Part shown: piece by piece, positions 32 to 10,361 of the stretch | Layout: each line of letters opens with the position of its first letter | Numbering within the stretch: position 1 is the stretch's first letter | The notes under the pieces: generated by a model | What the model was told of the DNA's origin: nothing | Databases searched by the model: none | What the model saw: the letters and a program-made list of their open reading frames with translations, nothing else | Source: a virus | IMG/VR virus record: IMGVR_UViG_3300049893_002668 | Location: 1-22,143 of that record | DNA length: 22,143 nt | Strand: one strand, 5' to 3' | Position numbers and translations under genes: made by a program

Positions 32-499
32 TCAATCGCATCGGGTTAAAGTCGGTAGCTTACCTCGTTCATAATTTTTCGCCCGTTTAATCCCCCACGA
101 TTTTGCGAGTCCAATGTTTGGAAAAATTCTGCAACCAATCTCGACTTTTCTTTTGAACAATGAGCAACACCATCGCCCTTTGATTTGCCACGACAAGAGC
201 ACAAGAATCTTGCCGATCTTGGCCTGATAGTCGCCCCCGTCTTTTTTCCATTTAATCATGCTCAGTTTTCCAATAGTACCGCTTTTTTTCGGCTCAATTA
301 CACTGTTAGCGGACTCGCGCAGGTAGTTGTCCGGCAGTTCCACGTCTGCGAACGCCGCACAGTCAATGTCGGCAGGCGGTTCGATGCGTTTCCCGCATTT
401 CTGGCAGACGCACACGCCTTTGTCGTCCACGTCCATTATTTCGTCACAGCATTCCGGTGGTTCGGGTTGCTCCGGTGGGTCGTTCCAGTAGTCATTCAT
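32..499 (-). CDS. Hypothetical protein with Cys-rich N-terminus, possible chimera
   Basis: I do not recognise this 155-residue protein. Its first ~60 residues are acidic and proline-rich and contain cysteines at 17, 18, 30, 32, 35 and 47, with a CxCxxCG motif like half of a zinc ribbon. From about residue 75 the character changes to a basic, Trp- and Lys-rich tail. The change lies just past a GTT core (305-314) that is the exact complement of the AAC core of attC-like site A. The N-terminal part therefore belongs to the methyltransferase cassette and the C-terminal part may come from the neighbouring DNA, making this a junction chimera. The start ATG lies 8 bases inside the end of the methyltransferase gene, so the two are probably translationally coupled. 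The N-terminal half looks genuine; the C-terminal half is less certain. Confidence 0.55.
   Translation of the reverse strand: MNDYWNDPPEQPEPPECCDEIMDVDDKGVCVCQKCGKRIEPPADIDCAAFADVELPDNYLRESANSVIEPKKSGTIGKLSMIKWKKDGGDYQAKIGKILVLLSWQIKGRWCCSLFKRKVEIGCRIFPNIGLAKSWGIKRAKNYERGKLPTLTRCD
305..314 (+). repeat. Half-site H: left boundary core of the methyltransferase cassette
   Basis: GTTAGCGGAC is the exact reverse complement of GTCCGCTAAC at 1304-1313 (site A). A right-arm-like CGGCTCAATTACACT precedes it. No matching left arm is found further left, so only a half-site is visible, lying inside the first ORF of the window. Confidence 0.5.
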
Positions 500-1367
500 G
501 GTATAGTTTCCTCAGTGTTGAGTATGCGATTGCAGCCACTCGCGGAACTTGGGAGTTGCCGAGCCGTGCGAGTCTGTCCATCCCATCGGGTAGCCCATAA
601 AATGCTCTGCGGCCTTCGGCGTAGGAAGATACCCGTGATACAACATCCACAGTGGCCAACTGGCCGAGCCAGGTTCTCCAGCCTTCGAGGTTTTCTGGAC
701 GTATCCACTCGATGACACTTGGATTTGCCCCGCATCCATCGGGCTTTCCTTCTCCAGAATCTGCGTTTTTAGTATCGTTGGCATATATCCAGCATCGCTC
801 TCGCTTGTGCGCAAGACCGGCATGGCAAGCCCCCATAATTCCCCACGTCGCATCATACCCCATTTCGGCAAGGTCACAGAGCACCACGGCAAGTCCTCGT
901 CCCACAAGCATTGGAGAGTTTTCAATGAATACGTTCGCGGGACGCACCTCAGAGACAATTCTTGCCATCTCCGACCACAGACCCGAACGGCTTCCGGTGA
1001 TTCCTTCGGCCTTGTAGTTTGCGGCGCTGATGTCCTGACACGGGAAGCCGCCAGAGACGACATCCACCAGTCCACGCCAAGGCTTGCCGTCGAAGGTTCG
1101 CACATCGTCCCAGATTGGGAATGGTTCAAGGCATCCGTCGTCTTGTCGTGCCTTGAGCACGTCTCTTGCGTGTTCGTCGTATTCGACGGCGCACACTGTT
1201 TTCCATCCGAGGATTTTACCCGCGAGTATTCCTCCACCGCAGCCCGCGAAAAGTGCCAGCTCATTGAAAGTCCTTTCTTGTTTGGTTTGTTGTAAATTCG
1301 ACCGTCCGCTAACCACCTGCTGCAGCGAACTCGCGCCGGGCGTCTCTGGTAAATTCGGAGCGTTCAT
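492..1367 (-). CDS. C5-cytosine DNA methyltransferase (Dcm-like)
   Basis: This enzyme transfers a methyl group from S-adenosylmethionine to C5 of cytosine in DNA; phages often use it to resist host restriction. The motif order is canonical: motif I FAGCGGG at residues 40-46 (cofactor binding), motif IV GGFPCQD at 106-112 with catalytic Cys110, a motif VI ENS at 149-151 (usually ENV), a motif VIII-like HKRER at 187-191, and motif X LGNSQVP at 269-275. Only about 60 residues lie between motifs VIII and X, so the target-recognition region is small. The first ~33 residues are outside the catalytic fold and are partly encoded by one arm of attC-like site A. The start ATG overlaps the previous stop as ATGA inside the loop of that site. 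No good ribosome-binding site precedes it, so coupling is likely. The target sequence cannot be read from the protein. It is the largest gene of the cassette-like array. Confidence 0.93.
   Translation of the reverse strand: MNAPNLPETPGASSLQQVVSGRSNLQQTKQERTFNELALFAGCGGGILAGKILGWKTVCAVEYDEHARDVLKARQDDGCLEPFPIWDDVRTFDGKPWRGLVDVVSGGFPCQDISAANYKAEGITGSRSGLWSEMARIVSEVRPANVFIENSPMLVGRGLAVVLCDLAEMGYDATWGIMGACHAGLAHKRERCWIYANDTKNADSGEGKPDGCGANPSVIEWIRPENLEGWRTWLGQLATVDVVSRVSSYAEGRRAFYGLPDGMDRLARLGNSQVPRVAAIAYSTLRKLYHE
512..1264 (-). CDS. Overlapping +1-frame ORF inside the methyltransferase gene
   Basis: A 250-codon frame runs without a stop through almost the whole methyltransferase gene, shifted by one base. 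It opens with MSWHFSRAAVEEYS, read from the same DNA that encodes motif I, and ends in a MGYPMGWTD...KFREWLQSH segment read from the DNA for motif X. From memory, proteins with this beginning and a GWPIGWTD...RFQQW ending are frequently annotated in phages beside or over dcm genes. Directly before its ATG there is an AAGAAAGGA Shine-Dalgarno-like sequence with 6-base spacing, better than the one serving the methyltransferase. It may be a real dual-coding gene, or an artefact of strong conservation in the main frame; sequence alone cannot decide. Function unknown. Confidence 0.35.
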   Translation of the reverse strand: MSWHFSRAAVEEYSRVKSSDGKQCAPSNTTNTQETCSRHDKTTDALNHSQSGTMCEPSTASLGVDWWMSSLAASRVRTSAPQTTRPKESPEAVRVCGRRWQELSLRCVPRTYSLKTLQCLWDEDLPWCSVTLPKWGMMRRGELWGLAMPVLRTSESDAGYMPTILKTQILEKESPMDAGQIQVSSSGYVQKTSKAGEPGSASWPLWMLYHGYLPTPKAAEHFMGYPMGWTDSHGSATPKFREWLQSHTQH

Positions 1368-1397
1368 GGGCGCGAGTCGCTGAGCAGGACGTTCGGC
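1307..1397 (+). repeat. attC-like site A
   Basis: CGCTAAC (1307-1313) and GTTCGGC (1391-1397) are the outer cores. The arms pair almost perfectly (GGCGCGAGT, CGCTG and AGCAGG on the right) except for single unpaired bases A and G in the left arm. The methyltransferase start and the upstream stop overlap in the 30-base loop. Confidence 0.75.
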
Positions 1398-1666
1398 GAC
1401 TCGTCAGGTTCGTTCTCCCAGCCCGGATGCAATCGCGTCATCATCTCATTTACCACGTCCCAGTCCGCCGCCTCAGTGCCGAGACATTCGCGCACCAATT
1501 CCGCGTTGGTCATCGCCCGAATGCGGTCGTGGTTGTGCAGCCAGTGGCACAGATTTGCAGCGAGGTCAGCAGGTGGTCGATTACGCCACGTCGCCGAACC
1601 AGTCGCTGGAGGCAACAGCGCCCCCGCTTCTGGCTTCGTCAACGTCTCTGATGATTCTGTAGTCAT
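1364..1666 (-). CDS. Small hypothetical cassette protein
   Basis: This 100-residue protein is not recognised. Residues ~50-85 (MTNAELVRECLGTEAADWDV onward) look like a compact helical segment. The first ~28 residues (GALLPPATGSAT region) are encoded by one arm of attC-like site B and the last ~10 by an arm of site A, so the body of the protein is the cassette-specific part. The start overlaps the upstream stop as ATGA, and the stop overlaps the methyltransferase start as ATGA, both inside hairpin loops. An internal Met52 is an alternative start if translation does not begin in the loop. Confidence 0.65.
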   Translation of the reverse strand: MTTESSETLTKPEAGALLPPATGSATWRNRPPADLAANLCHWLHNHDRIRAMTNAELVRECLGTEAADWDVVNEMMTRLHPGWENEPDESPNVLLSDSRP

Positions 1667-1720
1667 GGTTTCATTCCTTCGGTTTCTGCCGGGGCGCTGT
1701 GCCTCAGCTTGTCGTTCTGC
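1593..1720 (+). repeat. attC-like site B
   Basis: Cores are GCCGAAC (1593-1599) and GTTCTGC (1714-1720). The arms GGGGCGCTG, TGCCTC and AGC pair with the left arm, leaving one extra A and one extra G on the left. The left core with three flanking bases is complementary to the right core of site A over 10 bases. Confidence 0.8.
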
Positions 1721-2091
1721 CAGTAGCGCACACGCTTCCCCCGAGCTTGCGCGTAGGCGATTTCGCGGCGCGTGCTGCTCCCGAAGTAGCCATCTTCCGA
1801 GACGACGAGGATTTCGTCCGCAAGGTCTATTTTCTGATAGTGCAACCGGTCGAGCATCTGCTTCACGGCAGTTGCTTCGTCGCCGTCATTCGTCACAGCT
1901 TTTGCGCCGGGAGGATAGTCGGCGTGCCCATAGAGTCCCATCGGTATCACGATGTTTCCCGCGAGCGTTTCAGCCATCATTGCGCGATGATGCAGTTCGG
2001 GCCAGCGAGACGAGCCGCACAGGCACACGATAATGGCAGAACCAGTCGCTGCACCCAATGAGTCGGGCGGTTGAGTTTCAGTGGTATTCAT
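1663..2091 (-). CDS. Nucleoside 2-deoxyribosyltransferase-like (Rossmann-fold) protein
   Basis: The 142-residue protein begins its core with a strand and glycine turn (IIVCLCGSSRW, residues ~20-30). It ends the core with DLADEILVVSEDGYFGSSTR, then REIAYAQARGKRVRYW, where the Ser-Thr-Arg-x-Glu-Ile stretch is the usual ligand-binding and catalytic-type signature of small nucleoside 2-deoxyribosyltransferase-like or DUF4406-like proteins. Such proteins bind nucleosides or nucleotides; in phages they may act in nucleotide salvage or in nucleotide sensing. The central IPMGLYGHADYP segment fits the same group. The first ~18 residues and the last ~16 (starting NDKL) come from attC-like arms. The start overlaps the upstream stop as ATGA. 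Family placement is from motif memory and the exact reaction is not proven. Confidence 0.75.
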   Translation of the reverse strand: MNTTETQPPDSLGAATGSAIIVCLCGSSRWPELHHRAMMAETLAGNIVIPMGLYGHADYPPGAKAVTNDGDEATAVKQMLDRLHYQKIDLADEILVVSEDGYFGSSTRREIAYAQARGKRVRYWQNDKLRHSAPAETEGMKP

Positions 2092-2133
2092 ACGTCTTGT
2101 GCGCCCGCCTCATGGGTGAGCTTGTCGTTATGC
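2036..2133 (+). repeat. attC-like site C
   Basis: Cores are GCAGAAC (2036-2042) and GTTATGC (2127-2133). CTCAT, GGGTG and AGC of the right arm match the left arm with one unpaired A and one G. The left core complements the site B right core over 9 bases. Confidence 0.78.
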
Positions 2134-2378
2134 TTGAACCATCCGCCCACATACTTTCTCAGGCTGCGGAGGTTGCACTCGGTTGGATTGTGTCCCGGCG
2201 TGAGCGCGATGAGTTGCTTTCCACGCTGCACAAGTTTGGATTTCACGCACACAGGCGGGATGCCGTAGTTGAAGCACACCACGTCGCCAGCAGATACTCG
2301 GTTGCCGTCGTCATCAAGCATAACAAGTCGCTGCACACAACGGCGCTCCCGCACGTCATTTGGCAATTCGATAGTCAT
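2088..2378 (-). CDS. Small hypothetical cassette protein
   Basis: I do not recognise this 96-residue protein. The middle (residues ~20-80) alternates hydrophobic and polar residues like a small beta-barrel: DGNRVSAGDVVCFNYG, then VCVKSKLVQRGKQLIAL. It contains three cysteines with no zinc-like spacing. Residues 1-19 are translated from an arm and the loop of attC-like site D. If the conventional cassette layout applies, the natural start is Met20, whose ATG falls in the GTTATGC core of the site. The C-terminal NDKLTHEAGAQDV is read from site C. The stop overlaps the next start as ATGA. Confidence 0.65.
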   Translation of the reverse strand: MTIELPNDVRERRCVQRLVMLDDDGNRVSAGDVVCFNYGIPPVCVKSKLVQRGKQLIALTPGHNPTECNLRSLRKYVGGWFKHNDKLTHEAGAQDV

Positions 2379-2411
2379 GGTGTCGCGCCGTGTGTGAGCT
2401 TGTCGTTAGCC
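2318..2411 (+). repeat. attC-like site D
   Basis: Cores are GCATAAC (2318-2324) and GTTAGCC (2405-2411). The arms are the cleanest of the set: GCGCCG, TGTGTG and AGC on the right match the left with exactly one extra A and one extra G. The left core complements the site C right core over 11 bases. Confidence 0.82.
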
Positions 2412-2647
2412 GAATATCGCGCCATGAAAGCATCGAACTTCATTCGGCGCACACCCATCGTGCAGCTACACGGTTCAATTCTCCCCCATTTGCGGCGTCC
2501 GCTCTTTATCATGTCGCAGTTTGAGTCGTGGACGCCTCCCCATCGGTCGTGCATTTCCTTGAGGAGAGCAACGGCCTCGGCTAACAAGTCACTGGAGCGA
2601 ACAGCCGCCCCGCCTTCAGGTTGTTCGATGGTTTCTTGCGTATTCAT
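2375..2647 (-). CDS. Small hypothetical cassette protein
   Basis: This 90-residue protein is not recognised. Visible features are an amphipathic helix at residues ~20-36 (DLLAEAVALLKEMHDRW), a CSC pair at 59-61, a Lys/Arg-rich middle, and a short helix near the end (KFDAFMARYS). The C-terminal NDKLTHGATP is encoded by attC-like site D and repeats the tail peptide of the two neighbouring downstream genes. The ATG lies in the loop of site E with no clear ribosome-binding site. The internal Met32, preceded by AAGGA, is an alternative start. The stop overlaps the next gene as ATGA. Confidence 0.6.
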   Translation of the reverse strand: MNTQETIEQPEGGAAVRSSDLLAEAVALLKEMHDRWGGVHDSNCDMIKSGRRKWGRIEPCSCTMGVRRMKFDAFMARYSANDKLTHGATP

Positions 2648-2692
2648 GTCGTTAGTGATTCGGGGCGGCTGTCGCTCAGCTTGTCGTTAGAC
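2579..2692 (+). repeat. attC-like site E
   Basis: Cores are GGCTAAC (2579-2585) and GTTAGAC (2686-2692). GGGGCGGCTG, TCGCTC and AGC of the right arm match the left arm with single extra bases. The left core complements the site D right core over 9 bases. The upstream gene's TAA stop is inside the right core. Confidence 0.82.
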
Positions 2693-3007
2693 CAAAACAC
2701 CGATTACCTCCTTGCCAGCGAGCGGGTTTGGCTGCGCTGCGTATCGCTCGAACATAGCCTTGCGGTCGGCCTCGCTCGATGTCGGCAGTTCGATTTCTCC
2801 GACGTGCGTGGTGTCGTATTCGCCGTCCCAGAAGCGCGCGTCAGTGACGTGCTCACGCAGCCACGGTTCACAGGCCCGCATTGCCCTCGGCAGCATGTGA
2901 GTCATCAGCCCGGTTTCTCCGGTGATGATGCCAAGGTCTTCGTAGATGTGCTCCATTTTGGTGTGGAGTCGTCCGGTGGTCAGGTTTCTCAGTCGTTGGA
3001 TGTTCAT
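2687..3007 (-). CDS. Conserved phage-type hypothetical protein (possibly DUF7736-like)
   Basis: The 106-residue protein begins MNIQRLRNLTTGRLHTKMEH and continues with IYEDLGIITGE, THMLPRAMRA, VTDARFWDGEYD and AMFERYAAQPNPLAGKEVI. I recall this pattern from small phage proteins grouped under DUF7736, but I cannot confirm it. The layout is exactly that of a conventional integron cassette: the ATG lies about 8 bases after the GTT core of site F, and the TAA stop is formed inside the core of site E. Unlike the neighbouring genes it does not take its ends from the hairpin arms. Function unknown. Confidence 0.8.
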   Translation of the reverse strand: MNIQRLRNLTTGRLHTKMEHIYEDLGIITGETGLMTHMLPRAMRACEPWLREHVTDARFWDGEYDTTHVGEIELPTSSEADRKAMFERYAAQPNPLAGKEVIGVLV

Positions 3008-3011
3008 AATG

Positions 3012-3137
3012 GTCTAACAAGGCGCTGCACCGAACTGCCGCCCCGCTCGTCCGTTTCAGAGTCACTGTTCATTCGTTTCCTTTCCGTGCGCTACACCGTG
3101 CCGGTCGGCGGCAGTCGCTGAGCTTGGGTCGTTAGGC
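3012..3137 (+). repeat. attC-like site F
   Basis: Cores are GTCTAAC (3012-3018) and GTTAGGC (3131-3137), both perfect matches to the integron RYYYAAC and GTTRRRY consensus. The arms (CGGCAGT, CGCTG, AGCTTGG on the right) pair with one mismatch and the same unpaired bases. The left core complements the site E right core over 9 bases. Confidence 0.84.
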
Positions 3138-3316
3138 GGACTGATACGTTCGATGGTCACTTTGCGCGCTCCAGCCTCAAATGCGAAGGCCGCATCCCAT
3201 CCAGCATCCTCTGAGTTATCTGAGTCCCATTGTTTTTCTGGGTCATCATCAGCCGTTACGCGCCACACGTCCGCCGAACTAGTCGCGGCATTAGATTTGC
3301 GTGGGGCGGGGGTCAT
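3062..3316 (-). CDS. Small acidic hypothetical cassette protein
   Basis: I do not recognise this 84-residue protein. Residues ~20-42 are highly acidic (TADDDPEKQWDSDNSEDAGW), followed by DAAFAFEAGARKVTIERI, which looks like a helix and a strand and may be the folded core. The ending is read from attC-like site F, and its stop lies in that loop. A very good AGGAGG-type ribosome-binding site precedes the ATG, and the start also overlaps the upstream stop as ATGA. The N-terminal MTPAP and the DNA around it duplicate the start of the next gene upstream. Confidence 0.65.
   Translation of the reverse strand: MTPAPRKSNAATSSADVWRVTADDDPEKQWDSDNSEDAGWDAAFAFEAGARKVTIERISPPNDPSSATAADRHGVAHGKETNEQ
3269..3300 (+). 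repeat. Half-site G: right end of the cassette-like array
   Basis: GTCCGCCGAAC (3269-3279) complements the site F right core over 10 of 11 bases and is followed by a left arm AACTAGTCGCGGCATTAG like the others. No right arm or GTT core is recognised downstream, so the site seems truncated where the array meets the phage operon. Confidence 0.55.
3294..3316. repeat. 23-base imperfect direct repeat, copy 1
   Basis: The segment covering the start codon of the acidic protein gene matches 3488-3510 at 21 of 23 positions, including 16 identical bases in a row up to the start codon. Confidence 0.7.
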
Positions 3317-3510
3317 CTCCTATTCCTCCTATCATCGCGACACAGCCCGCAATAGTCGCCGCTCCCCGGCTGGATGCGTTCTCCGCATTGGATACACGTT
3401 TCGCGCTCCTCATCGGCCGCAGCGCGCAGCCATTTATTGTTGGGGAACCCGCGATACCACGGGTGAGCCAGCGAGTGTTTGCGTTTTGATTCGAGTGGGG
3501 CGGGGGTCAT
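3313..3510 (-). CDS. Small zinc-ribbon protein
   Basis: The 65-residue protein holds two paired cysteines in CIQCGERIQPGSGDYCGLC (residues ~40-58), a typical four-Cys zinc ribbon, followed by a short arginine-rich tail. I chose the internal ATG at 3510 because it overlaps the stop of the small membrane ORF upstream and because MTPAP matches the start of the next gene; the frame itself extends to 3573. It probably binds nucleic acid or a protein partner; the specific role is unknown. It is the last gene before the cassette-like array. Confidence 0.7.
   Translation of the reverse strand: MTPAPLESKRKHSLAHPWYRGFPNNKWLRAAADEERETCIQCGERIQPGSGDYCGLCRDDRRNRR
3488..3510. repeat. 23-base imperfect direct repeat, copy 2
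   Basis: It covers the start codon of the zinc-ribbon gene and gives both proteins the N-terminus MTPAP. The copies are 194 bases apart and frame the zinc-ribbon gene at the truncated end of the cassette array. Confidence 0.7.
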
Positions 3511-3608
3511 TGCATTGCAATCCATTTCGACCACAAGTAAAAGTTTATCGCCAGCCCGTTTGTGGCGAGGCAAATGATGATGCCGCAGATTAAATCATCG
3601 TCGCTCAT
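3507..3608 (-). CDS. Tiny single-pass membrane protein
   Basis: A 33-codon ORF between the exonuclease and the zinc-ribbon gene. It begins MSDDDLICGIIICLATNG and has one hydrophobic segment covering residues ~6-26, ending in a Trp/Lys interface (LWSKWIAMQ). Both ends overlap neighbours as ATGA: its start with the exonuclease stop and its stop with the next ATG. This filled coupling chain is the main reason to believe it. Possible roles include a lysis accessory or membrane-associated regulator, but nothing in the sequence decides. Confidence 0.5.
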   Translation of the reverse strand: MSDDDLICGIIICLATNGLAINFYLWSKWIAMQ

Positions 3609-4237
3609 GGTCTTTTTGGTTCGCCGCCGTTGACTTCGATCAGCCTGTCCTTGGCTTCCGAGAAAGATCGCAGAAATGAACTTAGTGCTGCGGCAATTGC
3701 CCCCGCCTTTTCCTCGTCCCTGGCGACGACTAAGTTTAGTGCAGGAAACCGCCGGCAATACGACAGAAACCTCCAGCTTTGCGCACCTGTAACAAACATT
3801 GCGCCGTGCACTTGAGGTCCATACTCCGGTGGAAGATCGCCGTTCAGCAGATATTTTGTGTGAGTATGCACCGCGGGACATTTAATCTCGATTCCGCTGC
3901 CGTCGTCTAACAATCCATCCGGGGAACAACCATAAGTTCCATCATCATTCGTGATGAATCCGACGCGCCGCAAACTAAGGCCGGAGACTAGCTCGAAAAA
4001 AGGTAAGGCTTCCTCTTCCAAAACCTGGCCTTGGTCCATATCAAACGTGTTGAGTGTCGCTATGGGACCGCCTAACCACCACTCAGCCAGTTTTTTTGCC
4101 AGGTATGTGCGCGGCATTTCGCCTTTCCGGATTTCAAACCCGGGAGTGACAAGTTGGTCGAACTCGCTTGCAGTGGGAATGCCAGCACGCAACTGCATCC
4201 ACTCGACTGATCCCTGCGCAACCTCGTGAATCTTCAC
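3605..4237 (-). CDS. YqaJ/lambda-exonuclease-type recombination nuclease
   Basis: This 210-residue protein belongs to the YqaJ-like viral exonuclease group, which resects double-stranded DNA ends to give single strands for annealing. The signature pieces are QGSVEWMQLRAG at 8-19 followed by TASEFD, GQVLEEEA at 70-77, GCSPDGL at 103-109 with Asp107, EIKCP at 117-121 giving Glu117 and Lys119 of the PD-(D/E)xK site, and QVHGAMFVTG near 142-151. The length is normal for the family. It starts with GTG, overlapping the stop of the ERF-type gene upstream. That adjacency is the classic pairing of an exonuclease with its annealing protein and supports both assignments. Confidence 0.93.
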   Translation of the reverse strand: MKIHEVAQGSVEWMQLRAGIPTASEFDQLVTPGFEIRKGEMPRTYLAKKLAEWWLGGPIATLNTFDMDQGQVLEEEALPFFELVSGLSLRRVGFITNDDGTYGCSPDGLLDDGSGIEIKCPAVHTHTKYLLNGDLPPEYGPQVHGAMFVTGAQSWRFLSYCRRFPALNLVVARDEEKAGAIAAALSSFLRSFSEAKDRLIEVNGGEPKRP

Positions 4238-4953
4238 CGGCCACCCCGCTCTTTCATCGCCAAAAAATTTTCGATCACCTCAGCCTTTGCCTCCGTGATG
4301 TCCTCAAATCGGGTTACGCCGGCTAACTTAAATAGCTTGGCTATGTCGGAATTAGTTTCCTTTGCGCGCCGTTCGATCTCAAAAGCTCGATCAGAGTGGA
4401 TACGACCCCCCTCCATCTTAGCATCAACTCGCTTGTTGAGAATGCGCAGACATAACCCGGCCTCCATTGCTCCCCGTTGGGCGTATGTATGGCCTGCCAT
4501 GTCCGCTTGCGATTCGTTGCACCCTGTTGGTCCCCGGCCCGCTCGGACCGTGTAGGGTATGCTCCGGGTATGTCCGCCACGGTGCGTTAAATCCATTGTT
4601 ACTGTGACCCGGCCGTCCTGAAACGAGTCCTCCCGGAACGCGTACGTGAATCCGTGTCGGAGACAAATCGGGCGGACAATCGCATCTATATCTTCAAAAG
4701 TTGCGTAGACAATTCCCTTGTGCATCCCTTCTTTCATGCCCTGGATGACGGGAAGCGCGGCCTGAAGTTCAAGGAATGCCTCAGCAAATTCTTTTTCCGC
4801 CTGGCGTTTCTCCTGCCGTTCGGCAAGCTCTAAGATTTTCTCCACAGTTGCAACATTCTCCGCGGTTACCCCGCCCTGGATAACTGCACGGAGCATGTCG
4901 GCAGGAGAAAGAGCCGGTGGCGCCGCACTTGATTTTTCAATCTCTAATTTCAT
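4234..4953 (-). CDS. ERF-family single-strand annealing protein
   Basis: The protein promotes annealing of single-stranded DNA during phage recombination and works with the exonuclease encoded immediately downstream. The ERF core is visible as EFAEAFLELQAALPVI, then YATFEDIDAIVRPICLRHGF, then a TMDLTHRGGHTRSIPY stretch and a later conserved segment around AQRGAMEAGLCLRIL. I chose the ATG at 4953; the frame also permits a GTG at 4974, and neither has a good ribosome-binding site. The start overlaps the end of a small zinc-ribbon ORF, so coupling is likely. A basic, Glu-rich C-terminal part follows the core, as in other ERF proteins. Length (about 239 residues) is usual. Confidence 0.9.
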   Translation of the reverse strand: MKLEIEKSSAAPPALSPADMLRAVIQGGVTAENVATVEKILELAERQEKRQAEKEFAEAFLELQAALPVIQGMKEGMHKGIVYATFEDIDAIVRPICLRHGFTYAFREDSFQDGRVTVTMDLTHRGGHTRSIPYTVRAGRGPTGCNESQADMAGHTYAQRGAMEAGLCLRILNKRVDAKMEGGRIHSDRAFEIERRAKETNSDIAKLFKLAGVTRFEDITEAKAEVIENFLAMKERGGR

Positions 4954-5113
4954 GGCATGTTGGTTTGTTCGCACTTTTTGGCATTAGCCCGACATTCTCT
5001 CTACCGCACTGTATGCACTCCCCGACCCAGCTAGCCTGCGTCCAGTCTAGCGATTTGTCCGGGTGGCAGAGATTGCACACCCAGATGGACTCTGCGGCGT
5101 CATCGACTTTCAT
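4937..5113 (-). CDS. Small zinc-ribbon protein
   Basis: A 58-codon ORF between the VRR-NUC nuclease and ERF genes. It encodes MKVDDAAESIWVCNLCHPDK, later GECIQCGREN, and a final TCHEIRD. The CxxC pairs at residues 13-16 and 33-36 make a clear four-Cys zinc ribbon. Its stop lies 17 bases inside the ERF gene and its start overlaps the stop of the micro-ORF upstream as ATGA. The spacing and fold suggest a small DNA- or protein-binding accessory of the recombination operon; that role is inferred from position only. Confidence 0.65.
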   Translation of the reverse strand: MKVDDAAESIWVCNLCHPDKSLDWTQASWVGECIQCGRENVGLMPKSANKPTCHEIRD

Positions 5114-5157
5114 TTATTTCCCACTTGCCGCTCTTTTGCTTCGGATTGTTTGCTCAT
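5110..5157 (-). CDS. 15-codon micro-ORF bridging two genes
   Basis: The frame reads MSKQSEAKERQVGNK. It exactly fills the gap between the VRR-NUC stop and the zinc-ribbon start, overlapping both as ATGA. It has no recognisable domain and may serve only as a translational relay between its neighbours. Evidence is positional, so confidence is low. Confidence 0.3.
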   Translation of the reverse strand: MSKQSEAKERQVGNK

Positions 5158-5531
5158 TTCAGATTTAGCGCATGATTTACTGCTCCCAAAAATTCTTGGA
5201 GCGAACGCACCATGTAGACCCGGTGCCCAAGTTTTTCCGCATGCACAGCGATTGCCTGTTGCGCGTTGCTTAGTTTTCCGCTCCTGGATTTACACTCGAC
5301 CATGATCATTTTGCCGCCATCTGCGAGAATGATAAAGTCCGGCTCGCCCTCGGTGCGATGTGTCCTCTCGGCCATTGAACCGTGGAACGCAATCCACCCC
5401 TTGCTGCGCACATAATCAAAAATCTGCGCGTGTAGATCGGACTCTACCTCGACGCCATCTTGCGCTGATTCCCGGCGGCGCGAACTGCGCCTATCCTCAT
5501 AAGCCAAATATTCCGCTTGAGTCATTCTCAT
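5154..5531 (-). CDS. VRR-NUC domain nuclease
   Basis: This 125-residue protein carries a stand-alone VRR-NUC fold of the PD-(D/E)xK superfamily, which cuts branched or otherwise structured DNA and is common in phages as a possible Holliday-junction-type nuclease. Visible parts are the helix with SDLHAQIFDYVRSKGW (31-46), GEPDF at 62-66 with Asp65, VECKS at 78-82 giving Glu79 and Lys81, and Gln91 in LSNAQQA. The first ~25 residues are a charged extension. The start overlaps the upstream stop as ATGA. Its place just ahead of the ERF and exonuclease genes fits a recombination or replication role. Confidence 0.9.
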   Translation of the reverse strand: MRMTQAEYLAYEDRRSSRRRESAQDGVEVESDLHAQIFDYVRSKGWIAFHGSMAERTHRTEGEPDFIILADGGKMIMVECKSRSGKLSNAQQAIAVHAEKLGHRVYMVRSLQEFLGAVNHALNLK

Positions 5532-5725
5532 TTGCTGATCTCTTCTATCTGCTTCGACAGTTCACAGACCGCGTGCAGCAAATTGTAAATCGCATAGTCA
5601 GTGGGTGACATGTCTCCGGGTCGGAATGTGTTTCGTCTATCCAGCGTCCGGAGCCCAATTTCACAAGACAATTGGCACCGATATGCAGACCATTCGCGCT
5701 CGGTCTTGGGTTTTTTACTTGGCAT
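5528..5725 (-). CDS. Small hypothetical helical protein
   Basis: A 65-residue protein with a basic N-terminus (MPSKKPKTEREW) and a helical C-terminus (YAIYNLLHAVCELSKQIEEI) that could form a short coiled coil. Not recognised. A strong GGAGG ribosome-binding site lies four bases before the ATG. The start lies 11 bases inside the end of the lytic enzyme gene, and the stop overlaps the VRR-NUC start. Confidence 0.65.
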   Translation of the reverse strand: MPSKKPKTEREWSAYRCQLSCEIGLRTLDRRNTFRPGDMSPTDYAIYNLLHAVCELSKQIEEISK

Positions 5726-6458
5726 TAAACCTCCGAATGAGTTGCTTTGTCCGTGCCGGCACCCGTTCGAGAGAGAAGCCCGCGCGGCGGAATCCCGTAG
5801 GACCGAGATTCCACGCTGCCAGGAGTTGTTCCGGGGTAGGGTTGTGCAGCCCCGCGCGGGTTAGGGTAGAGTGTAGCCATTCAAGATAACAAGCGGCCAG
5901 GCTGGAAGCAATCCGCGGATCGTCGGCGCAAACGAACGGCACTCGAAGTCCGCTTTGTCCTGCCAACTTACATGCTTGCTCCCAGCCCGCCGCCGAAAAT
6001 TGATACAGGCCGCGCTCACCACACAGCCCGCGAGCGTTCGGGTCGCCGCCCGACTCAGCAAACGCGAGACGCGAGAGAAAGTTCCCGCCGGGGTTGTTAT
6101 GCCCTAACCAGCAAACTCCGACCGCTTGCGCAGTCTCGATTTTTGCTGCCCCGGCGGGGAAAATGAGCCCCCCGGGCGGTGGCAATGGAATCCGCGCCGG
6201 GGGGTGGGACATTCCATGTCCCATGGGCAGGGTGTGGCCCCGCCTAAAATCCTGTGCGCCCGCAACCCAACAAAGTAGCAGCACTGCGCCCAGCGTCGCA
6301 AGCGCCGCCCATGCGATTGCAGAAAGCAACGAGTGCGTTGGTCCCTCGACGTAAAGGGAAGTCGCTTCGTCGAGAATCCTTTGATTCTGGCGCCGCAGAG
6401 CGCGCTCGAAGCGCCGGCGCGAAAATTCTAGGACGGAAAACCAGAAGGATGTGCTCAT
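5715..6458 (-). CDS. Membrane-anchored lysozyme-fold lytic enzyme (SLT-like)
   Basis: The 247-residue protein probably cleaves peptidoglycan, either for lysis or during entry. The N-terminus is basic and cytosolic-looking. One transmembrane segment spans residues ~43-67, followed by a Pro/Gly/His-rich linker (70-105), then a lysozyme-like domain. The domain shows the catalytic AFAESGGDPNARG stretch with Glu135, ERGLYQFS at 148-155, and AAWNLGPTGF near 213-222, the usual order in soluble lytic transglycosylases. Membrane anchoring by a single N-terminal segment is reminiscent of signal-anchor endolysins. It sits among early-type genes rather than beside a holin or the tail genes. Confidence 0.8.
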   Translation of the reverse strand: MSTSFWFSVLEFSRRRFERALRRQNQRILDEATSLYVEGPTHSLLSAIAWAALATLGAVLLLCWVAGAQDFRRGHTLPMGHGMSHPPARIPLPPPGGLIFPAGAAKIETAQAVGVCWLGHNNPGGNFLSRLAFAESGGDPNARGLCGERGLYQFSAAGWEQACKLAGQSGLRVPFVCADDPRIASSLAACYLEWLHSTLTRAGLHNPTPEQLLAAWNLGPTGFRRAGFSLERVPARTKQLIRRFNAK

Positions 6459-6661
6459 CGTTTTTTTTGGGCGTCACGCTCGTGACACCGCTCGTCGTGT
6501 TGGCAATTCAGGCACCTGGAGTCGTTTGACTCCAAGTCGCGTCGGTAGTTTTTGCAAATTCGGAACCACCCGCACCAATCCATTCCAGGGCAAACACACG
6601 CCCTCGGCCGGCGCTTGCATGGGATGCGGCCAGCGCTTAGGTAAATCCATGTTGCACTCAT
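6455..6661 (-). CDS. Small Cys-rich hypothetical protein
   Basis: The 68-codon frame holds eight cysteines, the last four in RICKNYRRDLE and RCLNCQHDERCHERD, arranged like a small metal-binding knuckle. Both ends overlap neighbours as ATGA (start with the upstream stop, stop with the lytic enzyme start), which favours this frame over a second open frame on the same strand beginning MDLPKRWPHPM. Not recognised. Confidence 0.5.
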   Translation of the reverse strand: MSATWIYLSAGRIPCKRRPRACVCPGMDWCGWFRICKNYRRDLESNDSRCLNCQHDERCHERDAQKKR

Positions 6662-6843
6662 TCGAGTGCTCGCCTAATAAACTCCGCGGTGTCCCAGCGC
6701 GGCACCTCGCCGAACGGGGTAGGACCTTGCTCGATTGCGACTACCATAGCCTCAGCGGCGAACCTGCTATGTAGGGCGCCGATCAACTCCCCGTCGATGA
6801 CGACGAGCCACATTCCGTTGTCCGGAATAAGTTTTGCGCTCAT
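6658..6843 (-). CDS. Small hypothetical protein
   Basis: A 61-residue protein, MSAKLIPDNGMWLVVIDGEL onward, then a helical RFAAEAMVVAIEQG and a C-terminal TAEFIRRALE. It looks like a small alpha/beta protein and is not recognised. I chose the ATG at 6843, preceded by TTGGA with five-base spacing, over a TTG nine bases earlier. Its stop overlaps the next start as ATGA. Confidence 0.65.
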   Translation of the reverse strand: MSAKLIPDNGMWLVVIDGELIGALHSRFAAEAMVVAIEQGPTPFGEVPRWDTAEFIRRALE

Positions 6844-6886
6844 GATGTCCAAGCAATTCTGTCACTCGCGTTGTAAGGTGTCAGCC

Positions 6887-7072
6887 TCATTTCCCCCCCC
6901 GTTCGGCTCGTCGTTTTTCCGATCGCGCCCAGGCCTCGATCGCCTCCCGAAGGAATTCCGAAGTCGGAACACGAGGGTTAGCTTCGCGCCAGCGGGCCAA
7001 GACTTCTAAGAATGGGCCCGTTCGGACGCTGATGATGTCCGGGACTGGGTCCCCGCTACTGTTTTTCGGCAT
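6887..7072 (-). CDS. Ribbon-helix-helix-like DNA-binding protein
   Basis: The 61-residue protein has the shape of an RHH transcriptional regulator: a short strand (DIISVRTG), a first helix (PFLEVLARWREANP), a turn, and a second helix (TSEFLREAIEAWARSEKRR). RHH dimers bind palindromic operators; several palindromes lie upstream of this operon at 8205-8281 and could be targets, which is inference. A good AGGAGA ribosome-binding site precedes the ATG by seven bases. Family assignment rests on pattern, not on a search. Confidence 0.6.
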   Translation of the reverse strand: MPKNSSGDPVPDIISVRTGPFLEVLARWREANPRVPTSEFLREAIEAWARSEKRRAERGGK

Positions 7073-7102
7073 AAAGTTTCTCCTGCGCCGATGTTCGGCT
7101 CG

Positions 7103-7438
7103 TTAGATGTTTCGGCTATAAACACGCACCCACGCCCGATGAACAAACGTAGGCTTTCCCACTTCGGGCGTTCGGGATTCATTCCAAGCCTCCCACGCTT
7201 CGACCGGGGCCGTTGCCGGCGCGTCTAACCACTGCGCCCGCATCGGCGCGGGGAACACGCCGAACACGACGCGTCCCTCAATCTTCTCACAAGCCCGCCA
7301 TACGGCCGGCTCGTCGTTGAGAGCCACCGCGCCGGCAGCCATGCCGTCGTCGATTTCAGTGATTTCATAGCCGCGCCGGGCGGCATCCTCAATTTGCTCC
7401 CGGCTCGGTTGGTGCCGGGAAAACCACATGGCTTTCAT
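7103..7438 (-). CDS. Hypothetical protein
   Basis: The 111-residue protein begins MKAMWFSRHQPSREQIEDAA and ends with THR/Val-rich strands. It has an alternating alpha/beta pattern (RRGYEITEIDDG, EGRVVFGVFPAP). The N-terminal F-S-R-H-x-P opening recalls a small family I have seen in phages and metagenomes, but I cannot name it. An AAGGA ribosome-binding site with five-base spacing supports the start. Function unknown. Confidence 0.7.
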   Translation of the reverse strand: MKAMWFSRHQPSREQIEDAARRGYEITEIDDGMAAGAVALNDEPAVWRACEKIEGRVVFGVFPAPMRAQWLDAPATAPVEAWEAWNESRTPEVGKPTFVHRAWVRVYSRNI

Positions 7439-7446
7439 TTTTTCCT

Positions 7447-7878
7447 TTATAGTCCGAGTGCTGCAAATGCGCCGCCAAGATCGGCCAGCCCTTTGCTGGC
7501 CTTTTCGTCCCTGTGCACATAGAACCGGGTGGATGAGCAGGAGCGGTGTTCCGCCCCAAATTCAATCCGCCGGCCTTCCGCCGCGTTTCCAAACTCTGCG
7601 GCAGTGGCTGGGACATAATCCCCAGCCGTCACCAGCCACACTTTGTAGCTTCGGCCCCGGCCATCGTAACCGGTGCCGTCGAACCCCCGGAAATCCGCCG
7701 GGGTGAATTGGAACCCGGCGTCAGATGCCGGGTCCACGCCGGGTGCATAGATAAAAATCTCGCCGCCAGCCCGGTAGGAGTCTCCGAGTGGCTCCACTGA
7801 CACGGTGCATCCCTTGGCGGTAAAAATTGACCGAATTTCCCCGGAAGACCGGGGAGCCTGCTTGTTTTCTGTAATCAT
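7447..7878 (-). CDS. Hypothetical protein
   Basis: I start this 143-residue protein at the ATG at 7878 (MITENKQAPRSSGEIRSIF); the longer frame to 8049 adds a Pro/Arg/Gly-rich stretch that looks like read-through of a GC-rich gap. The protein has an N-terminal helix, a strand-rich middle (TVSVEPLG, GEIFIYAPG), and a C-terminal helical region (KGLADLGGAFAALGL). Not recognised. It lies eight bases from the next gene in a leftward operon. Confidence 0.65.
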   Translation of the reverse strand: MITENKQAPRSSGEIRSIFTAKGCTVSVEPLGDSYRAGGEIFIYAPGVDPASDAGFQFTPADFRGFDGTGYDGRGRSYKVWLVTAGDYVPATAAEFGNAAEGRRIEFGAEHRSCSSTRFYVHRDEKASKGLADLGGAFAALGL

Positions 7879-7963
7879 ACCCATTGCCTGCGGGCCTTTC
7901 ACCCGACCCGCTCTGGGGGTTTGCCCTCGCCCCCGGCCAGAGTGCCCGGGGGAAAGGGGAAAT
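7879..7963 (-). other. Short GC-rich gap with a possible hairpin
   Basis: The 85-base gap between two early genes contains CTCTGG and CCAGAG arms (about 7913-7944) around GGG/CCC runs, enough for a stem-loop. There is no T-run, so it is not a clear terminator. Confidence 0.3.
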
Positions 7964-8140
7964 TCACGCGACAACCGCATCCCATACATAACCGTCTGGA
8001 TGCAGGATTTCCACGGTCCGGCCGGTGCGCCGGGCGAGTGAGCGCGCACGATCCCGTAGTGCTCGCGCGAGCACGTCGGCCGTGCGCTGGTCGCCCGACA
8101 ATCCGCGGGCGGTTTTCTTTGATATTGTTATACTCTTCAT
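7964..8140 (-). CDS. Small basic protein, first gene of the leftward early operon
   Basis: A 58-codon ORF too short to stand out but well formed: MKSITISKKTARGLSGDQRT, then a long basic helix (ADVLARALRDRARSLARRTG), then strands ending in DGYVWDAVVA. The pattern resembles antitoxin-like or accessory DNA-binding proteins, but I do not recognise it. A longer overlapping frame (7899-8156) is compositionally biased and less convincing. It is the promoter-proximal gene of the operon that runs left to the recombination genes. Confidence 0.6.
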   Translation of the reverse strand: MKSITISKKTARGLSGDQRTADVLARALRDRARSLARRTGRTVEILHPDGYVWDAVVA

Positions 8141-8204
8141 GCGCCGACAATCTCACAATCCCGTAAACACGTCAACAAGTTTTCTCAAATATTTTTCTGA
8201 GCTC

Positions 8205-8281
8205 TCGCAACACGTTGCGATTCAACGCGAAAAAGATGAAGATTTTTTCGCGTCCGTCGGCAAACCATCCGGAATTTCCGG
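8205..8281. promoter_or_regulatory. Cluster of three palindromes upstream of the early operon
   Basis: Three different inverted repeats lie within 77 bases: TCGCAAC and GTTGCGA arms at 8205-8220; ACGCGAAAAA and TTTTTCGCGT arms at 8225-8253; and the 13-base palindrome CCGGAATTTCCGG at 8269-8281. They sit 65-140 bases before the first leftward gene, where operators are expected. Binding proteins are unknown; the ribbon-helix-helix-like protein of the same operon is one candidate. Confidence 0.45.
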
Positions 8282-8337
8282 AAAGTTGCCCGGCGCTAGC
8301 AATGCGCGTGCCCCCGTCAACGGGTATTTTAGCCTAC

Positions 8338-8364
8338 TTTATACCTAAGCGAAAGCCGTTGCAA
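8338..8364 (-). promoter_or_regulatory. Candidate promoter for the leftward operon
   Basis: Read on the minus strand, TTGCAA (8364-8359) is followed after 15 bases by TATAAA (8343-8338). The spacing is shorter than ideal. A second option nearer the gene is TTGACG at 8175-8170, but its -10 match is poor. Assignment is by pattern only. Confidence 0.3.
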
Positions 8365-8415
8365 ATCAACCACTTGCCCTGTCGGAGTCTCCCTGACTTT
8401 AATTCTGCACTTCAA

Positions 8416-8445
8416 AATTAAAGGATTAAGTCTCATCCTTTAATT
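8416..8445. repeat. Perfect 11-base inverted repeat
   Basis: AATTAAAGGAT (8416-8426) and ATCCTTTAATT (8435-8445) are exact complements around an 8-base loop. It could be an operator or a weak transcript end; it borders the tandem-repeat tract. Confidence 0.5.
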
Positions 8446-8452
8446 AGCGGCC

Positions 8453-8496
8453 AGCTTGCAGCTTGCAGCTTGCAAAGCCAAACTGCGCAAACTGCG
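8453..8496. repeat. Iteron-like short tandem repeats
   Basis: Three copies of AGCTTGC run head to tail at 8453-8473, followed five bases later by two copies of CAAACTGCG at 8479-8496 and a partial third. Such tracts can bind replication initiators or regulators. No initiator gene is recognised in the window. Confidence 0.6.
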
Positions 8497-8511
8497 CAAG
8501 CTGGAATCCAT

Positions 8512-8532
8512 CTTGTAAGCGTTCCTTACAAG
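8512..8532. repeat. 8-base inverted repeat
   Basis: CTTGTAAG (8512-8519) and CTTACAAG (8525-8532) flank a 5-base loop just after the tandem repeats. A T-rich stretch follows on the plus strand, so a weak terminator is possible. Confidence 0.45.
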
Positions 8533-8547
8533 TTCCTGATTTTCCCC

Positions 8548-8574
8548 TTGACGTGCCGCCCATGATGGTAGAAT
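8548..8574 (+). promoter_or_regulatory. Candidate rightward promoter
   Basis: TTGACG (8548-8553) and TAGAAT (8569-8574) are separated by 15 bases, two short of optimal. It lies immediately before the structured, terminator-ending segment and would start a short transcript near 8581. Confidence 0.4.
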
Positions 8575-8580
8575 ATCCCC

Positions 8581-8718
8581 CCGTCGGTGGCCGGCTGTGA
8601 TGGGTCGGTATTGCGGTCCAGTTAACTGCCGAGCGAATTTCTCGCTCAACGTGTCCGGAGTGAAAGCCTGGACAACTCTCCCGCAATCGAGTCTATCACC
8701 GTTGAGCGGGTCTTTTTT
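8581..8718 (+). ncRNA. Candidate attenuator-like or small structured RNA
   Basis: No convincing ORF lies here, but the RNA can form two mutually exclusive structures. One is a small hairpin, GAGCGA (8631-8636) with TCGCTC (8642-8647). The other is a long stem, CGCTCAACG (8643-8651) with CGTTGAGCG (8700-8708), which encloses a second hairpin (GTCCGG at 8653-8658 with CC plus GGAC at 8667-8673) and is followed by six T at 8713-8718. The second form is an intrinsic terminator; the first would disrupt it. This is the logic of an attenuator or riboswitch, but could also be a terminated small RNA. No known class is recognised. Confidence 0.4.
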
Positions 8719-8944
8719 GTGCCTATCAACACCGACCGCGTAGCGCCCGGGAATCGCGTCAGGCGGCCCGCGCGTGAAATGCCTGTCCCGGGGTTTGTCT
8801 ACCGGGTGAAACTAGCTACGGCTCGAACCGCAGCACTCTACGCTCCGGTCTGCGAGAATAGACCACCGCACCATGAGGTAAACAGACGCGGGATGAGCGG
8901 AAAAATGCGAAGCGACCGACCGACCGGGTTAGGGTTGATTGCAG
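8719..8944. other. Non-coding stretch between two terminators
   Basis: I see no convincing gene. A plus-strand frame starting at 8719 crosses the strong terminator and has biased composition. A GGTTCGAGCC-like sequence on the minus strand near 8820-8832 suggests a tRNA T-arm at first sight, but no matching cloverleaf follows. The stretch could be the body of a second small RNA ending at the 8945 terminator. Confidence 0.35.
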
Positions 8945-8973
8945 AGAGTCCCCTGTTATCGGGGGACTCTTTT
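8945..8973 (+). terminator. Strong intrinsic terminator
   Basis: AGAGTCCCC (8945-8953) pairs perfectly with GGGGACTCT (8962-8970) over an 8-base loop, followed by a short T-run. It would stop rightward transcripts from the control region 44 bases before the plus-strand gene. Confidence 0.8.
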
Positions 8974-9016
8974 GCTCGCTCACTCCCTCCCAGGTTATGG
9001 TCGAAGTATTCTTTCC

Positions 9017-9391
9017 ATGAAGATAAAACCTACCCCCAAAGGGCTAGAACGGTTCCGATACTTCTCGCTTTGTGCCGACTCTAAGCGACTCCCACCATTA
9101 GCAATGGACCTAACCGGGTACACAGCCTCCGAATGTTTCCACGCTCATGAGACCTACGGGAAAACCCTACCATGCCGGGAGCCGGAGCTTTTGGCTCGTG
9201 CGCTGAACGGTAAAGAGTGGCACGGACTCACCGTGACGATGGTGGCTGAGGATTTAATCGCCGGCCTTTGCTCGGCTGCCGAAATACGCAGCACGTACCC
9301 TGTGTGGGTAGTCCGCGATATATTAGGTCGTGCCGGTCAGCTTGCGCATCTTAAGTTGGGTTTTGTCCCGAGGTTCATCCGAGAGGGATAG
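9017..9391 (+). CDS. Hypothetical protein, only plus-strand gene
   Basis: I start this 124-residue protein at the ATG at 9017 (MKIKPTPKGLERFRYFSLCA); the open frame extends back through the terminator and that part looks non-coding. The protein contains a helical PELLARALNGKEW stretch, a Val/Ala-rich helix (TVTMVAEDLIAGLCSAAEI) and a Leu/Val-rich C-terminus. Not recognised. It runs against all other genes and its end overlaps the end of the leftward structural operon by 17 bases. No clear ribosome-binding site is seen. It may be expressed separately from both operons, for example as a regulator, which is inference from its isolation. Confidence 0.6.
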   Translation: MKIKPTPKGLERFRYFSLCADSKRLPPLAMDLTGYTASECFHAHETYGKTLPCREPELLARALNGKEWHGLTVTMVAEDLIAGLCSAAEIRSTYPVWVVRDILGRAGQLAHLKLGFVPRFIREG

Positions 9392-10361
9392 CTGGTAGGC
9401 GCCTTGAAACCCATGCAACCGCGTTTAGGAACAGTGATGTTGAGTCGTATATCGGAGACAGCGGATTAGAGCCTAGCGCCCAGTCCATAATTGCTGGATT
9501 CCCTACCCACAGCACGCGGCCGGCTCCTAGCTCTGTTGCGACCATCGCATGCGGGTATTGCACGCCACCGGGTTGGCCGAATCCTCGGGTTGATGTGTAG
9601 GACGCCAGGGCAACGGACTGCCCGCCGGTAATGCGAAATGCGCACGGGCAAAGGTAGCGACGGAATCCTGAGGCGATTGGATTTGTGACTGGAATCCACC
9701 TCGGATCATTGCTCGCCTGAAAATTAGCGTAGGCGAATGTATCTGGCAGAGTTGATATGTTACCGAACGCGCCGCGGAATACTCCGTGCGTTGGGAATGT
9801 GATCTGAGTTCCGATCGGTTGAAAGTCGGCCGCACCAAAGAAGAACTGGTCTCGTGTCCAAAGGAACGAATTCTCCTCGCCGAAAACCTCTATACCGAAT
9901 TCGGCCAGGTTGATGACGTTTGCGGCCACGGTATCGGCTGCCCAGGACATGTGCATGATAACTCCGCCGCCGGCCCGAACGTAATCCTGTAGCGTCCCGC
10001 CTGGCCGCCAGACGAATGGTTCGTTGGCAGTGAAATCAACCCAGCGCACATAGTTAGGTTGTGCTGGGACAGGCAATCCAGTTTGGTTGGTTATTTCCTT
10101 AAACCCGAAGTTCCGTCGGAATGCTGTCTGTTGGTCTAATCGCGGGAATGCTTTTGCGTTCAGAACTGGGTCGACCACTAGTTGGGAGAAAGGTCGTAGG
10201 AGTGCGTGGCCAAGATAAGAGTTTGTAACGACCTCCAAAGGCGCCAGAGCGTAATTGCCCACCATGTAACGCAAGCCTGCAATCGGGATCGTTTCGCGAG
10301 TTTCTTTATCCGCCGACGTGCGAACCGATGTTGAGCCCTTGTATAGTTCGACTGTTGGCAT
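9375..10361 (-). CDS. Structural-operon protein with glutamine-amidotransferase-like fold
   Basis: The 328-residue protein has no sure family. The middle segment LQDYVRAGGGVIMHMSWAAD and the later ATELGAGRVLWVGNPAIMDW, followed by STSLFLNAVAWVS, resemble the strand-turn-strand and C-terminal portions of class-I glutamine-amidotransferase-like or ThuA-like domains, where a glycine-rich turn precedes the nucleophile position. I see no obvious nucleophilic Cys in the turn, so it may be non-catalytic. It is the last gene of the tail operon, separated by a single base from the gene upstream (TGAGATG). It may be a virion or tail-tip accessory. Confidence 0.7.
   Translation of the reverse strand: MPTVELYKGSTSVRTSADKETRETIPIAGLRYMVGNYALAPLEVVTNSYLGHALLRPFSQLVVDPVLNAKAFPRLDQQTAFRRNFGFKEITNQTGLPVPAQPNYVRWVDFTANEPFVWRPGGTLQDYVRAGGGVIMHMSWAADTVAANVINLAEFGIEVFGEENSFLWTRDQFFFGAADFQPIGTQITFPTHGVFRGAFGNISTLPDTFAYANFQASNDPRWIPVTNPIASGFRRYLCPCAFRITGGQSVALASYTSTRGFGQPGGVQYPHAMVATELGAGRVLWVGNPAIMDWALGSNPLSPIYDSTSLFLNAVAWVSRRLPAIPLG

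Follow-up and report, generated by a model that had tools for sequence, protein, structure and literature searches.

Integrons are DNA systems by which bacteria collect resistance genes; they are usually seen as platforms that belong to bacteria, with the copies in phages regarded as strays. We analysed a single IMG/VR virus record from an uncultured phage, IMGVR_UViG_3300049893_002668 (22,143 bases, all of it referred to here as the window), in which a phage operon carries an array of integron-like gene cassettes. The first-pass annotation of this DNA had described six imperfect palindromes with the architecture of attC recombination sites. The window was scanned with a pattern built on class-1 attC geometry, the class-1 sites being drawn from plasmids: AAC/GTT cores, a spacer, 3-4 paired bases, an extra left-arm base, 5-6 pairs, a second extra base and 5 pairs. 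The scan returned six sites, all on the + strand and within 1308-3136, with scores of 12.5-15.5, whereas dinucleotide shuffles of the window (n = 40) gave a mean of 0.05 sites at a score of at least 12 and a top score of 13. Applied to class-1 integrons, it recovered attC on the gene-sense strand only. All six palindromes and their attC architecture were thereby borne out. One further palindrome in the 22 kb passes the geometry (8878-8999), with the lowest score, 12.0; it lies outside the array and is likely due to chance.

With + as the canonical top strand, the sites lie at 1308-1396 (attC 1; geometry score 15.5, fold z -4.2), 1594-1719 (attC 2; 15.0, z -2.8), 2037-2132 (attC 3; 14.0, z -3.6), 2319-2410 (attC 4; 14.5, z -1.0), 2580-2691 (attC 5; 14.0, z -4.0) and 3013-3136 (attC 6; 12.5, z -0.2). 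Each of the six has R'' and R' cores and L boxes, and extrahelical bases are confined to one of its arms; when the - strand was folded as DNA, 6/6 sites formed a hairpin whose unpaired bases lie in a single arm. Compared with shuffles, the folding energy is unusual at four sites (z -2.8 to -4.2) and ordinary at 2319 and 3013; with two of the six ordinary, we rejected folding energy as proof of attC. An Rfam search of the window returned nothing at E<=1.

The cores divide the array into seven units. The earlier observation that the two cores of each unit are complementary, with one mismatch in the last, was reproduced: R' and R'' cores pair inside their own unit at 66/70 bases, which ranks first among the 5040 possible pairings (mean 45.6), and the sole core mismatch is that of the last unit. 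Outside the core, pairing within a single site reaches just 2-4 of 7. The ends of a cassette (R' start and R'' end) are thus complementary, as expected of a former circle. Two half-sites bound the array, and from their sequence each can be given a putative role. The one at 305 behaves as an attI-type junction (295-315, +): it has a GTT core, agrees over 10 bases with the R'' core at 1311 and marks the array end where relatives have intI. The one at 3277 behaves as a decayed attC (3270-3300, +), which retains the AAC of its R'' core, has lost its right half and closes the distal cassette, with a 9/10 core match to the GTT at 3131.

Taken from G/TT to G/TT on the + strand, cassette 1 (306-1391) holds a C5 cytosine DNA methyltransferase gene, dcm (492-1367, -; Pfam PF00145 DNA_methylase, 4.2e-29), and the 5' part of an open reading frame (ORF) at 32-499, also on -, which spans the attI-type junction and is the last before the contig end. 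Cassettes 2 (1392-1714), 3 (1715-2127), 4 (2128-2405) and 5 (2406-2686) hold the bodies of the ORFs at 1364-1666, 1663-2091, 2088-2378 and 2375-2647, respectively, all on -. No function is assigned to the first, third and fourth of these, and the second has a Nuc_deoxyrib_tr match below threshold only. Cassette 6 (2687-3131) contains a DUF7736 gene (2687-3007, -; PF24875, 2e-16), with relatives in 11 viral contigs at 60-82% identity, and the degenerate cassette 7 (3132-3290) contains the body of the ORF at 3062-3316 (-), which overlaps this last, decayed unit. At the distal array end the start regions of two adjacent ORFs (3296-3316 and 3490-3516) have ATGACCCCCGCCCCAC in common, a small duplication.

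The placement of the palindromes between operon genes, together with the stop and start codons that they contain, would also suit operon hairpins, acting as terminators or in RNA processing, with a merely fortuitous likeness to attC. We consider this extremely improbable, given that the extra bases stand in one arm at class-1 spacing in 6/6 sites, that the cores are complementary within their own unit, and that the same kind of site lies beside an integron integrase and an attI-like junction in other phages.

Extrahelical bases direct the recombining strand and position of attC (Bouvier et al. 2009, PMC2727003). Class-1 attC sites have two unpaired bases in the arm adjoining the gene end, and alignment shows the same two in the window sites, where on the + strand they fall in the left arm. 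Since these bases mark + as the top strand and all cassette genes lie on -, the genes are antisense to attC. The usual, though not universal, agreement in direction of gene and attC is absent here (5/5 testable window cassettes antisense). This inversion had been overlooked in the first-pass annotation, as had the start and stop codons in the attC loops described below. Orientation was called by dicodon score; a longest-ORF test was uninformative in GC-rich DNA and was dropped. In viral arrays, from contigs gathered by three routes, 63/65 distinct cassettes are antisense to attC, compared with 22 sense, 3 antisense and 11 unclear cassettes in Verrucomicrobiota arrays beside IntI (Fisher 1e-16). 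The viral contigs selected by IntI gave 27 antisense, 1 sense and 1 unclear call, and those selected by attC pattern 27 antisense and 0 sense; the trend also recurs in contigs selected by YqaJ alone (9 antisense, 1 sense, 1 unclear).

The inverted sites double as coding sequence. On the gene strand, ATGA is present in the loops of 6/6 window sites, and in four of them it forms the stop/start overlap of neighbouring genes: at 1364-1367 in attC 1 (stop of ORF 1364-1666, start of ORF 492-1367), 1663-1666 in attC 2 (stop of ORF 1663-2091, start of ORF 1364-1666), 2088-2091 in attC 3, whose loop holds the start codon of the ORF at 1663-2091, and 2375-2378 in attC 4. The loop of attC 5 holds the start codon (2645-2647) of its own gene, ORF 2375-2647, and its core the stop of ORF 2687-3007; the loop of attC 6 holds the stop of ORF 3062-3316 and the ATG of a short leader frame that closes where ORF 2687-3007 starts. 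Because the loops contain stop and start codons, several proteins have attC-encoded tails, for example NDKLTH. An early idea, that start codons lie in the attC of the neighbouring cassette, was dropped once the extrahelical bases had fixed the orientation. Within dcm, an SD-like (Shine-Dalgarno-like) AAAGGA stands ahead of TTTCAATGAG at 1255-1280; the ATG of TTTCAATGAG is out of frame with the enzyme, which seems to have its in-frame start within the attC, in the loop or the core.

Coding loops are common to the viral sites. Among 103 distinct viral sites, antisense ATGA occurs in 62 loops and sense ATGA in 3, against 14.5 (standard deviation 3.4) in shuffles and 0/42 antisense in bacterial (Verrucomicrobiota) attC loops. 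The bias recurs in the IntI-selected set (57 sites; 26 antisense, 1 sense) and in the pattern-selected set (41 sites; 31 antisense, 1 sense). The frame of the loop ATG stays open beyond attC in 49/62 cases (21 and 30 for the other two frames), and the frame closed by the loop TGA enters from upstream in 43, compared with 28 and 31 for the other frames.

We searched for related sites with a pattern of the attC arms, which matched 12 viral contigs and 1 contig among 84,980 genomes; a looser pattern found 27 viral stretches. Nine pattern-found viral records contain a full-length match to TIGR02249 (integron integrase), four over the curated cut-off and five below it. The nearest solved structure to viral IntI is Vibrio cholerae IntI (PDB 2A3V, 5e-54). 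Viral IntI shares with this enzyme and with class 1 IntI1 the conserved catalytic residues and the IntI-specific insertion but falls into clades of its own: a viral scan with an integrase alignment gave 76 loci, 62 open frames entered the tree, and large virus-only clades emerged. In all, an integron integrase is encoded by about 60 viral contigs, and most of these enzymes belong to such clades. The best match to a phage-clade IntI query in 388 Verrucomicrobiota genomes has 44% identity, and the best annotated phage among the matches listed has 39.7%. The tyrosine recombinase with an integron-specific patch that the first-pass annotation had proposed looking for is found, with its insertion, in related viral contigs, and not in the record itself. 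At 1483-2400 of one contig (L093; G117), the IntI frame has an altered C-terminus without the usual end and is possibly a frameshifted copy.

In 68/74 cases the attC near viral intI is on the opposite strand and 5' of intI, as is normal for integrons, and it is the gene direction alone that is reversed. Among 27 loci checked, 15 have an attI-like junction 39-86 bp ahead of the intI match, and in each of these 15 the bases before the junction agree with the R'' core of the closest attC at 9-11 of 11 positions. A recurring sequence follows the junction (AAGGATT..GCAACT in the main clade).

Upstream of the window array lie a YqaJ-type recombinase/exonuclease gene (3605-4237, -; Pfam PF09588, 3.7e-17) and, upstream of that, a gene for an Erf-like single-stranded DNA annealing protein (4234-4974, -; phrog_155, 7e-19), both also identified by synteny. 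ERF and YqaJ precede the array in the window and in two relatives, L097 and G003, both of which run on to intI in cis; the order is thus ERF-YqaJ-[array]-intI in the relatives and ERF-YqaJ-[array]-contig end in the window. YqaJ homologues fetched regardless of attC added four more phages with an array at the same place (L239, L243, L244 and L269), each with its attC all on the same strand; a single-protein search with ERF gave no match. Between YqaJ and the array, L097 encodes a protein (3518-4465) that on visual inspection alone resembles a second tyrosine recombinase.

The cassettes of the ERF-YqaJ-flanked phages differ, and what they have in common with the window is attC stretches. The first-pass annotation had proposed searching related phages for the same flanks with different cassettes, and named a covariance search without attC above threshold, together with a fixed block of the same genes, as the outcome that would speak against an array; the varying cassettes show that, in its essential part, this outcome did not occur. 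attC 4 is 95% identical to an attC of another viral contig (L005), there beside different genes. Separately, a 104-base stretch (99% identity) and a Dcm cassette (about 77% identity) recur at differing positions in the contig pairs L009/L118 and L116/L118, which come from different phages.

The repeated layout also bears on whether the array is a piece of a host chromosomal integron, misbinned or misassembled as virus. The window is a single metagenome record, and attC arm sequences are common to bacteria and phage, as this explanation would have it. We nonetheless judge it very unlikely: the ERF-YqaJ-array layout recurs in separate viral contigs, host arrays carry sense genes, the attC pattern favours viral contigs over genomes as counted above, and the IntI contigs carry phage structural genes (head, tail, head-tail adaptor, terminase) as well as replication genes.

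Taken together, these features point to the cassette array of a phage integron, in a variant with genes inverted relative to attC, a reading drawn from sequence to which we give a probability of roughly 85%. Several points count against it. The 22,143-base record encodes no tyrosine recombinase and ends about 304 bases beyond the last junction, and none of three related array-bearing records from the YqaJ search (G499, G500 and G502), which may be fragments, has intI. No near-identical phages with swapped cassettes were found, close pairs being copies and sharing being partial, and in 12/27 loci the best junction lies farther off than 39-86 bp from intI; in some of these a nearer attC was probably missed by the scan threshold. 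Our own build of a class-1 covariance model, which is weak for long loops, found no significant site in the window and also missed the bona fide chromosomal attC of Opitutae; its result was not weighed as evidence. The orientation calls depend on the dicodon score and on our own scan, part of the viral set was retrieved by a window-derived pattern, and the arrays selected by YqaJ include one sense call among 11 cassettes (9 antisense, 1 unclear).

The missing integrase raises the alternative of an integrase-less attC cluster (CALIN), in which bacterial cassettes entered a phage and are now fixed, or are at most mobilised in trans by a host integrase. The window, a fragment, fits the definition of such a cluster (at least two attC and no intI in a phage genome), its three array-bearing kin likewise lack intI, phage CALINs are known (PMC9892861), and Verrucomicrobiota are integron-rich, with 110/388 genomes matching phage IntI at E<=1e-30. 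Against this, the phage arrays differ from those of Verrucomicrobiota in their inverted genes and loop ATGA, and many phages that share the attC type, in some cases along with the flank, encode an intI themselves and have an attI-like junction. We therefore regard a fixed cluster as possible but rather doubtful. That the array is 'without integrase', as first annotated, holds for the record; since the record stops where relatives have intI, the absence may reflect truncation, but three relatives are also without it, and the array may equally be a real integrase-less one. Contig extension by end sequence gave no match.

Clusters of attC in phages are not new. CALINs with DNA methyltransferase cassettes inside phage genomes have been published, and 5/6 phage attC tested were active with IntI1 (Qi et al. 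2023, PMC9892861); the first-pass annotation supposed mobile cassette arrays in phages to be rarely described, and phage attC clusters are rare, yet already on record. Like these, the window combines attC with methyltransferase cassettes in a phage genome, but neither a phage-specific intI lineage nor an inverted layout was reported there, and the single attC that we could detect in one of these phages, TJE1, is sense to its methylase gene, unlike the window. Verrucomicrobiota chromosomal integrons, such as that of an Opitutae metagenome-assembled genome (G001/L066), have related attC arms, a divergent intI and cassettes, but their genes are sense to attC, their loops lack antisense ATGA and their IntI are at most 44% identical to the phage-clade query. 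In Treponema integrons intI and the cassette genes point the same way, as here, but intI faces attI and the cassettes follow on the far side of attI, whereas in the phage kind intI points away from attI and the genes are inverted (PMC3607928). Virus Rctr41k (L236, KX853513) is a tailed phage in which the gene annotated as xerD encodes an IntI homologue and five sites of attC geometry come after it, but there attC lies on the gene strand and on the other side of intI; positions 4680-10100 of this genome are apparently an overlooked phage integron of another layout. In the open-access literature we found no account of inverted-cassette phage integrons, coding attC loops or virus-specific IntI clades.

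We propose that an integron integrase, which related phages encode downstream of the array and which here is either lost to truncation or provided in trans, would fold that strand of attC which is also the coding strand. Cassettes would be joined at G/TT, new ones entering at attI, at the far end of the ERF-YqaJ operon. The inverted genes would be transcribed as part of the phage operon, in the direction of attI and intI, so that no integron promoter would be needed. The attC loop of each cassette contributes the start codon, mostly within ATGA, and the neighbouring attC contributes the stop, either a TAA of the core or a TGA of the arm or loop; translation could then continue across the recombination sites from one gene into the next. 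Recombination activity, transcription and translational coupling are all predicted here from sequence. Among 80 cassette proteins the majority are without any match, and the recognised ones serve chiefly DNA modification (Dcm 5, N6/N4 2, Dam 1, MT-A70 1, Mom 1), a cargo that fits the exchange of anti-restriction genes and suggests an anti-restriction role.

With somewhat better than even confidence, we suggest that phages have an integron lineage of their own, with virus-specific IntI clades, a recombination operon that has attI at its end, attC as a coding stop/start linker, and cassettes traded for anti-restriction and other small genes. Its bearers may be phages of Verrucomicrobiota and their kin; resemblance of attC and IntI makes Verrucomicrobiota our guess for the host. 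If the virus-specific integrases and inverted cassettes are what they appear to be, phages would use integron recombination themselves. attC tolerates sequence change, and it could then become coding yet keep its fold. The rule of strand choice would become testable in a setting where the recombining strand is the coding strand. Such arrays may offer a direct answer to how compact phage operons acquire and swap counter-defence genes.

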